Part shown: piece by piece, positions 8,151 to 13,837 of the stretch
Position numbering within the stretch: position 1 is the stretch's first letter
Layout of the letters: each line of letters begins with the position of its first letter
Source: an uncultured Rhodospirillales bacterium
GTDB taxonomy: Bacteria; Pseudomonadota; Alphaproteobacteria; Acetobacterales; Acetobacteraceae
Assembly: GCA_903927465.1 (NCBI GenBank)
Contig: CAIYMY010000059.1
Span: 1-32,664, forward strand
Direction of reading: 5' to 3'
Length of the DNA stretch: 32,664 nucleotides
Program-made: the position numbers and the translations under genes
Notes under the pieces: generated by a model
The model's input: the letters and a program-made list of their open reading frames with translations, nothing else
Database searches by the model: none
What the model was told of the DNA's origin: nothing

Positions 8151-8420
8151 ATGGGCGGCATCGCTGAAGCAAGCAGGGAAGCGCTTTGGGTTACTCTGCA
8201 GATCGGTGGGCCGCTGCTGGTGCTGCTGCTGATTGTTGGCCTTGTGGTGGCTGTGTTCCAGGCGCTGACCCAAGTGAATGAGGCAAGCCTTTCCTTCCTG
8301 CCGAAAATGGCTGCTCTCGCCATCGCGCTTATTGTGCTGACGCCCTTCTTTACCGGCGTGCTGCGCGGCTATGCCCAAAGCCTGTTCGACATGATCATCC
8401 AAGTCGGATCAAGGCCCTAG
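8151..8420 (+). CDS. fliQ: Flagellar export gate protein FliQ
   Basis: Export gate subunit of 89 residues with two transmembrane helices (about 18-38 and 53-72). The family motif VVAVFQALTQVNEASLSFLPK links them. AAGGAAAGGCAGGG lies just upstream of the ATG. Usually fliQ runs directly into fliR, but here a 178-bp gap follows, of which 114 bp are a tandem repeat. Confidence 0.96.
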   Translation: MGGIAEASREALWVTLQIGGPLLVLLLIVGLVVAVFQALTQVNEASLSFLPKMAALAIALIVLTPFFTGVLRGYAQSLFDMIIQVGSRP

Positions 8421-8475
8421 CGGTGCGATTCATGTTGACCTTCCCCGCCGCCGGGATGCCCCCGCGCACCACTAG

Positions 8476-8589
8476 CCATATGTTTGGTGGGCCGATTCAC
8501 GCTGCTGTCGGTTCCAGACAGCAGCGATCGGACCATATGTTTGGTGGGCCGATTCACGCTGCTGTCGGTTCCAGACAGCAGCGATCGGA
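8476..8589. repeat. Two perfect tandem copies of a 57-bp hairpin repeat between fliQ and fliR
   Basis: Positions 8476-8532 and 8533-8589 are identical. Each unit holds a perfect 9-bp stem, GCTGCTGTC and GACAGCAGC, around the loop GGTTCCA (first copy 8501-8525). Outer arms CCGAT and ATCGG extend the stem across a small internal bulge. The array is bounded by near-identical 11-mers, CCACTAGCCAT on the left and CCACTGGCCAT on the right; the right one includes the AT of the fliR start. There are no unique spacers, so it is not a CRISPR array. The layout suggests a REP-like intergenic element or an RNA structure that adjusts expression across fliQ-fliR. It may displace the fliR ribosome binding site. 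Confidence 0.93.
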
Positions 8590-8598
8590 CCACTGGCC

Positions 8599-9375
8599 AT
8601 GACCGAAGCAGAATGGCTCGCAGCACTCCCGGATATGGTGTTTCGCGCTGTGCTGCTGCTGGCGCGCATCGGTGCGGTGGTCATGCTGATGCCAGGGCTT
8701 GGCGAACAGGAAGTGCCCAGCAATTATCGCCTGGGTTTGGGCTTTGCGCTAGTTATGGTGCTCTACCCCGTGCTGTCACCATCCCTACCGGTGGCGCCCG
8801 ATGCCGTTGGTGAAATGCTGCGCCTGGTCCTGATAGAAATCGTGATCGGTATTTGGTATGGCGCGCTCACCCGGCTGGTCACCCTGGCCATGACGATGGC
8901 GGGACAGCTTTTCGCCCTGCTGCTTGGGCTTTCGCAAATGCTGGCCCCCGATCCAGGCTTGGGCGGACAAAGCGCCGTGACCGGGCGCTTCTTTGGGTTG
9001 CTTTCCGTGGTCCTGATGATGAGCAGCGGGCTCTATGCGTTGCCACTGCGGGCCTTGGCAGAAAGCTATGCCGTATTGCCGGTGGGTGAAGGTTTTCTGG
9101 CCGGGCCAGGCGCTGAGGCTATAGCCGCGGCGGTTGGGCAAAGCTTCATCCTGGCGCTGCAACTCATGGCGCCCTTCCTGCTTCTGTCCGTTGTGCTGAA
9201 TGTCGCTTTCGGCCTGCTTGCGCGTATCGCGCCGCAGGTACAGATTTATTTCCTGGTGGTGCCTGGGCAGATTTTATTGGGCCTTGTGCTGCTTGGGCTA
9301 TTGCTGCCCGCCATGCTCGGGCTTTATTCAAGCATCGCACGCGAGACTTTCCTCACCCTGCCAGGAGTACGTTGA
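8599..9375 (+). CDS. fliR: Flagellar export gate protein FliR
   Basis: Third membrane subunit of the export gate core, 258 residues, with about six hydrophobic segments. The N-terminus ARIGAVVMLMPGLGEQEVPSNYRLGLGFAL and the middle GLSQMLAPDPGLGGQSAVTGRF are diagnostic. Length fits the family (about 255-265). The start at 8599 follows the end of the tandem repeat by 9 bases, and only a weak GATCGGA stretch from the repeat itself is available as ribosome binding site. This suggests the hairpin affects fliR translation. Followed by flhB after 3 bp. Confidence 0.95.
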   Translation: MTEAEWLAALPDMVFRAVLLLARIGAVVMLMPGLGEQEVPSNYRLGLGFALVMVLYPVLSPSLPVAPDAVGEMLRLVLIEIVIGIWYGALTRLVTLAMTMAGQLFALLLGLSQMLAPDPGLGGQSAVTGRFFGLLSVVLMMSSGLYALPLRALAESYAVLPVGEGFLAGPGAEAIAAAVGQSFILALQLMAPFLLLSVVLNVAFGLLARIAPQVQIYFLVVPGQILLGLVLLGLLLPAMLGLYSSIARETFLTLPGVR

Positions 9376-12791: not shown

Positions 12792-13786
12792 CAAGGGTTT
12801 TCCTTATCGGGCCTTGCGGCCCCACTTTGCGCAGAACCGCGCTGAGCAGACCCATGCTGAGCAGACCCATGCTGAGCAGACCCATGCTGAGCAGACCCAT
12901 GCTGAGCAGAGGATAGCAAGCGTGATGCCAGCCCTTCCGGGGTAAGCGTTTCAAGCCCATCGGCGACTTCCGGGCCGATACCCGCTTCGGTCAGTCTAAG
13001 CGGCCCCGCGGCGGCGGCCATCAATACGCCCCCCAGGCGCCGTGCGGCATCCAGCCTGGTTGGCAGCAAATGCTGCGCGCCAAGGGCGGCGAAAGCGCGC
13101 GCCAGATCGGCAGCTTCTGCCGGATCAAGCCCAGCCGGCAGCACCAAGATCATATCGGCCCCGGCCTGCACCGCCAATTGGCGTAATTGCCGCGCCTGGT
13201 CATGATTGAAGGGATCGCAGCCAGCGGTATCAATCACCACGGGCTGGCCGGGGCTGCGATGCGCCAACGCCTTGGCGAGCATGGCAGGCGTAGGGGCGAC
13301 CGCAAGCGTGACGCCCAAAACCCGCGTGAAGGCGGCAAGCTGTTCGACAGCACCGGCACGTTGGCCATCCGTGGTGATAACCAGCGGAGGTGTACCGCCC
13401 AGCACCATGCGCGCGGTGAGCTTGGCGGTCGTGAGCGTTTTTCCTGCGCCGGGCGAGCCGGCCAGCAGCAAGGGGCGGTCCCGACCCAAGGGCAGCGCGG
13501 TGAAGGCTAAGGCCTCGGCCAGGCTTTCCGACAAGGGGCCCTTGACCAAAGCCTGATATAGGCTCGCCGGAATATTGTGGAAATCGAGCGGCCCGGGCGC
13601 CGCAAACGGCGCAGCGCTGGTGAGCGGCTGAATCAGGATCAGTTCATCAGGCTCGAGTGCTGCGGTGATTTCCACCCCATTGCGTGTGCGGCGTTGTTCC
13701 AGGATGATGGCATCAACGCCGAGTTCCGCGCGGATCTGCGCCATGGCTTCGGCCATATTCGCGCCGTGAAAAACCTTGAGCCGCAT
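12791..13786 (-). CDS. flhF: SRP-type GTPase FlhF, polar flagellar placement
   Basis: GTPase of the signal recognition particle family that places the flagellum at the pole. Residues 1-45 carry the FlhF N-terminal signature (MRLKVFHGANMAEAMAQIRAELG). The G domain shows the P-loop GSPGAGKT (110-117), the SRP-type TTDGQRAGAVEQL (138-150), DTAG (186-189) and a TRLD variant of the usual TKLD base-recognition motif. At 331 residues it is short for FlhF, mainly because the linker between N-terminal and NG parts is reduced. The C-terminus ends in six SAQHG-like pentapeptides encoded by a 15-bp minisatellite. It overlaps flhG by one base. Confidence 0.92.
   Translation of the reverse strand: MRLKVFHGANMAEAMAQIRAELGVDAIILEQRRTRNGVEITAALEPDELILIQPLTSAAPFAAPGPLDFHNIPASLYQALVKGPLSESLAEALAFTALPLGRDRPLLLAGSPGAGKTLTTAKLTARMVLGGTPPLVITTDGQRAGAVEQLAAFTRVLGVTLAVAPTPAMLAKALAHRSPGQPVVIDTAGCDPFNHDQARQLRQLAVQAGADMILVLPAGLDPAEAADLARAFAALGAQHLLPTRLDAARRLGGVLMAAAAGPLRLTEAGIGPEVADGLETLTPEGLASRLLSSAQHGSAQHGSAQHGSAQHGSAQRGSAQSGAARPDKENP
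12841..12910. repeat. 15-bp minisatellite in the 3' end of flhF
   Basis: Four exact copies of GCTGAGCAGACCCAT (starts 12841, 12856, 12871, 12886) and a fifth partial copy (12901-12910). In flhF they encode SAQHG repeats, followed by the degenerate SAQRG and SAQSG. The unit is a multiple of three, so slippage would change tail length without a frameshift. Confidence 0.95.
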
Positions 13787-13837
13787 TCTTCAGCAGCCCC
13801 TTCGCGCGGCAGGCAAGTTAGGCGGGGTTTGCGACAC

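Follow-up and report, generated by a model that had tools for sequence, protein, structure and literature searches.

Small intergenic repeats and the fliQ–fliR junction

The closest described kind to the repeat analysed here is that of the bacterial MITEs, especially the CIR repeats of Caulobacter, to which the likeness is one of description. CIRs, the CcrM-associated intergenic repeats of Caulobacter and Brucella (Chen and Shapiro 2003, via PMC2229807), are ~110 bp long and consist of two inverted-repeat arms and a linker, with conserved GANTC; the review gives them stops in all six frames, leaves their mobility open and names no target (PMC2229807). Our repeat resembles CIRs, so described, in its size, two arms, linker, alphaproteobacterial host and conserved GANTC, but one of its frames is open in 43 of 46 copies within the genus, and for this reason it is not filed as a CIR. 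With the MITEs RUP, Correia/NEMIS and ERIC it shares, according to the same review (PMC2229807), a length below 200 bp, the absence of any demonstrated gene of its own, terminal inverted repeats and a dispersed, mostly intergenic distribution, whereas it differs from them in having two separate arms instead of one end-to-end hairpin and in lying often on stop codons. For RUP, an IS whose ends resemble its own is the probable partner (PMC2229807). The 4-bp target of IS5 is C(A/T)A(G/A) (PMC11677980). Like our repeat, three resident insertion sequences of IS5/IS1182 type have CTAG on both sides; these encode a transposase and differ in their terminal repeats. In the portions of the literature searched, no description of this family was found.

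The window, the whole 32,664-nucleotide stretch of DNA analysed, carries fliQ (89 aa; 8151..8420, + strand; Pfam PF01313) and fliR (258 aa; 8599..9375, + strand; Pfam PF01311), with 178 bases between the fliQ stop, ending at 8420, and the fliR ATG at 8599. The first-pass annotation had recognized both genes, the gap, two identical 57-bp units and a 9-bp stem (GCTGCTGTC/GACAGCAGC) with outer pairing, all of which are present. It had taken the 57-bp unit for the entire feature, whereas positions 8417-8475 form the first arm of the same element. When the gap was searched against its own genome (a draft of 220 contigs and, like the relatives, probably a metagenome bin), the matches began at the second base of the gap, well upstream of the 57-bp unit. 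The junction repeat is a single copy of a 123-bp dispersed element in which a 57-bp duplication has produced a second arm II next to the first; including both target copies it spans 8417..8596 on the + strand, with element matches at 8417-8539 and 8533-8597.

The left end, CTAG (8417..8420), contains the fliQ stop TAG (8418-8420) and is read as a target copy by comparison with empty sites. In arm I (8417..8475, + strand), folds and pair counts place 8417-8427 opposite 8465-8475 around a long loop. The tandem array (8476..8592, + strand) comprises two units of linker plus arm II, 100% identical in the draft assembly (at lag 57 the sequence matches itself over 60 bases, starting at 8476); arm II, with its hairpin, lies at 8486..8537 and again, 57 bases on, at 8543..8594 (both + strand). 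The right target copy, CTGG (8593..8596), is read as a decayed CTAG. The fold of the whole gap reaches z = -5.2 against shuffles. The 11-mers flanking the array, previously interpreted as a target duplication, hold the inner and right-hand copies of the terminal sequence of the element itself (ACCACTAG / ACCACTGG).

Tandem full copies elsewhere in the family share one terminal tetramer, and since the array junction has no CTAG, the doubling looks like a local slip; the active copy correction suggested earlier finds no footing in a duplication of this local kind. It is improbable that the identical second unit is an error of draft assembly: the repeat is exact, and among the other collected matches none has arm II repeated alone beside a full copy, but the frame across the array stays open, and the 117 bases of the array lie within ordinary read length.

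A dispersed family with two hairpin arms

Searches of the host genome and of relatives returned further copies in both. We kept 65 matches, 58 of them full-length; 52 full copies at 95 bits or more entered the alignment, leaving out 6 weaker full and 7 partial matches, and removal of 3 identical rows (the copies of one genome had sometimes entered by two routes, e.g., L036 = G019:C5) left 49 distinct full copies with 86% mean column identity. The copies collected from relatives begin with CTAGTGGTGCGATTC and end with CGATCGGACCACTAG, so that a CTAGTGGTSCGAT-like sequence stands at both ends as terminal inverted repeats, and an inner copy of the end, GCACCACTAG, occupies element positions 50-59. 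The element has two hairpin arms and CTAG ends. Being short, dispersed and present in many copies with terminal inverted repeats, and with a target duplication that is likely, the family shows the general marks of MITEs. Single-arm copies of 56 bp occur in L008 and L018. In L035, L036, L041 and L077, tandem copies share one terminal tetramer (CTAG, but CGAG in L077), and those of L035 fall into two supported subgroups, both as predicted by repeated insertion into the terminal CTAG. A contig from a viral collection also carries a full copy (L128:10700-10822); its flanks are the same as those of L056/L057, and it is therefore probably a host fragment.

In its own genome the element was found at 10 places by DNA search, the window's included, and in 17 matches of model R1. 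Of 35 genomes in the genus, this model matched 23, the own one among them; 18 of these have a best E of 2e-13 or lower and 5 are weak, with one or two matches each and best E from 2e-9 to 6e-4. DNA search found the family in 10 of 39 genomes, own included, all in the genus. Across the class, R1 matched 6 of 289 genomes and the broader model R2 15 of 385, own included, in 12 families (weakest best E, 8e-5), the R2 count being a lower bound, since the filters were strict and 9 candidates were scored in each genome. R2 had no match in the 4 genomes from other genera of the same family, nor in the one replicon searched for comparison with RIME, pSymB of S. meliloti. The sequence was read in 5 of the 14 other class genomes and gave 20 distant copies; in 17 of these, one or both ends are an exact CTAG. 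A two-hairpin mobile family is defined with a testable model, in 12 alphaproteobacterial families by model and in 6, its own and five others, by sequence. Five copies gave 0 blastn matches in plasmid records. In Rfam the junction had no match above gathering score and no E below 0.13, and 7 copy-bearing loci had no match at E up to 0.1.

The hairpin of arm II persists between families. In a cross-family set of 24 sequences (19 of the 20 distant copies, L148 being left out, and 5 from the genus), 95.4% of arm II cells are paired. Covariation reaches 0.385, whereas shuffles give 0.115 (sd 0.014) and slid pairings no more than 0.078. Both sides have changed in 9 of the 12 distal arm II pairs, a bare count matched by 43 of 500 shuffles. 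Covariation is weak within the genus alone, and the strong result needs the distant families. This covariation between families argues that selection, or the transposition process, keeps the hairpin while the sequence turns over.

Judged from sequence, the repeat could also be a DNA methylation element, a CcrM-associated repeat of CIR type whose GANTC sites would matter to the host; we regard this as possible but unlikely. In CIRs the GANTC touches a terminal loop or lies partly inside it. In the window, one GANTC lies in arm I (8427..8431, + strand), at the border of stem and loop, and one in each arm II copy (starts 8494 and 8551), at the base of the hairpin. Three sites in the 180-bp element compare with 54 in the 32.7-kb window, the arm II site occurs in 43 of the 49 copies from the genus and in 18 of the 20 distant ones, and the size and two-arm plan agree with the CIR account of the review. 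The arm I site, however, is kept in only 31 of 49, and since GANTC lies within a generally conserved stretch, its conservation is not separate evidence for methylation.

REP/BIME sequences are short palindromes that lie close to the ends of genes and may form tandem arrays. The first-pass annotation had proposed a REP-like mobile element, of which the mobile part is supported, the family being dispersed, intergenic and evidently mobile, and the REP-like part is not. That this is a REP/BIME element moved by a Y1 (RAYT, HUH) transposase would fit hairpins that are intergenic, dispersed and at times in tandem, but the element is larger (123 bp), has two arms, ends on either side in like sequence, and its site lengths fit a target duplication; furthermore, 0 of 8 carriers, three of them <90% complete, have a Y1_Tnp match, against 5 of 14 control genomes. 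We give this origin almost no credence.

Empty sites, the likely target and a candidate transposase

Among 16 fliR relatives, two contigs start inside fliR, which with the window leaves 15 readable junctions. Seven are empty, 6 carry this family and 2 (L030, L039) carry another repeat. One contig (L041) starts inside the array, putting fliQ out of view. The empty junction of L040, GGCC-TTAG-TG-ATG, fits the gain of one element with one target copy, and the other 6 of the 7 have one base fewer between stop and ATG than the filled ones. A second comparison comes from the flhF-like gene. The site before it is occupied by this family in L046, L052 and L073 and is empty in the window, where the target CTGA lies at 13790..13793 on the - strand (coordinates derived from position 13786, where the gene starts). 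Here GGGGC-TG-CTGA-AGA-ATG (empty) stands against GGGGC-SG-CTAG...CTAG-GCS-ATG (filled), a net gain of 119 bp. The lengths near flhF fit one 4-bp target copy (or TA), although the empty sites have diverged: CTAG is found at 0 of 8, the sequences being TTGA, CTGA (2), TTAA, ATAA, TTAG and ATGA at fliQ–fliR and CTGA at flhF. From such comparisons a target duplication appears likely. Near the C-terminus of the flhF-like protein of the window, a 15-bp repeat (12841-12910, - strand; 4.7 exact copies) encodes SAQHG repeats.

The sister of the window in the fliR tree, L027 (support 99/98), has an empty junction. In this tree the occupied state takes three changes, two of which are forced by well-supported branches, and a single gain with subsequent losses, in place of multiple gains, is compatible with the tree. 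In the element tree the copies fall in three places: that of the window, those that come first in L035-L038, and that of L041 together with the later units of L035. The place of the window is unsupported, and the supported branches force one origin only. We consider that the fliQ–fliR site was probably hit more than once. Repeats of more than one family seem to have landed there: at the junctions of L030 (3893-4000) and L039, another sequence of ~105 bp follows the fliQ stop, and weaker matches to the L030 stretch occur in L007, L059, L112 and others. A further two-hairpin repeat, unrelated to the first family, is ~105 bp long, has CTAG-like ends and is present at L027:7365-7471, at L041:3643-3747 and in L062 and L065. 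In the last two it adjoins the first family at one shared terminal tetramer. Some of its copies have GATTC in the terminal loop, close to the CIR description.

The element often sits on gene stops. CTAG is scarce in the collected loci: their 334 kb hold 226, element copies included, whereas CATG occurs 2035 times. A gene stop lies within the terminal tetramer at 22 of 45 distinct sites. For CTAGs elsewhere in these loci the figure is 7 of 87 (p = 2e-7), and with the comparison restricted to stops and non-coding CTAGs it is 7 of 30 (p = 0.03). The excess over other non-coding CTAGs is modest, and target choice together with purging of harmful insertions could explain most of it. This count used frames of at least 100 codons with little overlap, a cut-off above the 89 codons of fliQ, grouped orthologous sites by hand and dropped CTAGs 300 bases or less from a locus end; it replaced a cruder one (24/44 vs 27/104), which included doubtful frames and merged one unrelated site. 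In the distant copies, a crude count finds a frame of at least 100 codons ending in the terminal triplet in 10 of 20. The likely CTAG target would make gene stop codons safe landing places.

Most probably, the junction element is a non-autonomous one of MITE type, which a DDE transposase like those of IS5/IS1182, supplied in trans, would have inserted into the YTAG formed by the fliQ stop; duplication of the tetramer would have let fliQ retain its TAG stop, and a later replication slip of 57 bp would have doubled the second hairpin. Such a history suggests a concrete way in which small repeats could come to lie within operons and leave the genes whole, and is a candidate explanation for the mobility of CIRs, which the review leaves open (PMC2229807). 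IS4/IS5-type transposases occur in 7 of 8 carriers. Three of the 30 loci examined are flanked by CTAG (L102:1472-2319, L107:367-1849 and L117:833-2124, of IS5 and IS1182 type by NCBIfam), and the first of these, of IS5 type, begins within the right-hand CTAG of a copy of the element. None of the three has the ends of our element, and the class of transposase is one that we infer. Unlike RUP, the family gave no partner IS in genomes G000, G005, G007 and G014, in which the full end-pattern listings (up to 3 mismatches), read by eye, held no inward-facing end pair at IS length.

The duplication may instead be one of 2 bp, TA, of IS630 type. IS630-type transposases do occur in 6 of 8 carriers. As partners, however, their loci were rejected, the 15 examined having 0 element profile matches and, as their nearest approach to the element ends, 13-mers that differ at 2 or 3 positions; we favour the 4-bp duplication.

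Consequences for fliR and the open frames

The fliR gene is intact and under purifying selection, with 98 silent codon differences and 19 residue changes between the window and L027, and the insertion is presumably close to neutral for it. The first-pass annotation had suggested that the folded RNA tunes FliR amounts relative to FliQ. A regulatory hairpin of this sort, setting the FliR:FliQ ratio and kept by selection at the junction, would draw on the strong fold and on the displacement of fliR from a purine-rich stretch that lies directly before it in the empty relatives (GAGG in 3 of 7, GAGA or AAGG in the rest). Against this, nearly half of the readable junctions are empty, that of the sister L027 among them, the same element stands at many other genes, and the fold is common to the entire family. 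We therefore hold such regulation to be very unlikely.

The reading frames make an unbroken open passage between fliQ and fliR no worse a guess than folded-RNA tuning of FliR. In all five filled operons readable from fliQ (the window and L035-L038), open frames form an unbroken chain that leads on from the fliQ stop and closes with a TGA overlapping the ATG of fliR. In the window this is a frame of 59 codons (8423..8602, + strand), which starts 2 bases past the fliQ stop, so that there is no overlap, and ends in ATGA; in L035-L038 a TAGTG overlap occurs at every unit. Such a chain would permit a translation relay, in which the element, seated on a TAG stop (TAG/GTG overlap, TAGTG), has a 39-codon frame ending exactly at the right-hand TAG and passes ribosomes through one to three tandem copies to the next gene. 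The relay would keep the operon coupled despite the insertion; we think it unlikely, and as a property of the sequence of this lineage it may matter.

The openness of the element frame within the genus exceeds a uniform null (35.8, sd 2.8; reached in 0.3% of runs). As a sign of coding constraint it was rejected, since a null weighted by variability gives 40.7 (sd 2.2) and reaches the observed value in 22% of runs, and a coding role was likewise rejected, codon positions showing no difference (0.104, 0.119, 0.112). In the distant copies the frame is open in 7 of 20 and that of the opposite strand in 10 of 20. At L051:1518-2306, where the right CTAG is CTGG, the element frame continues into the next frame of 221 codons, a possible N-terminal fusion.
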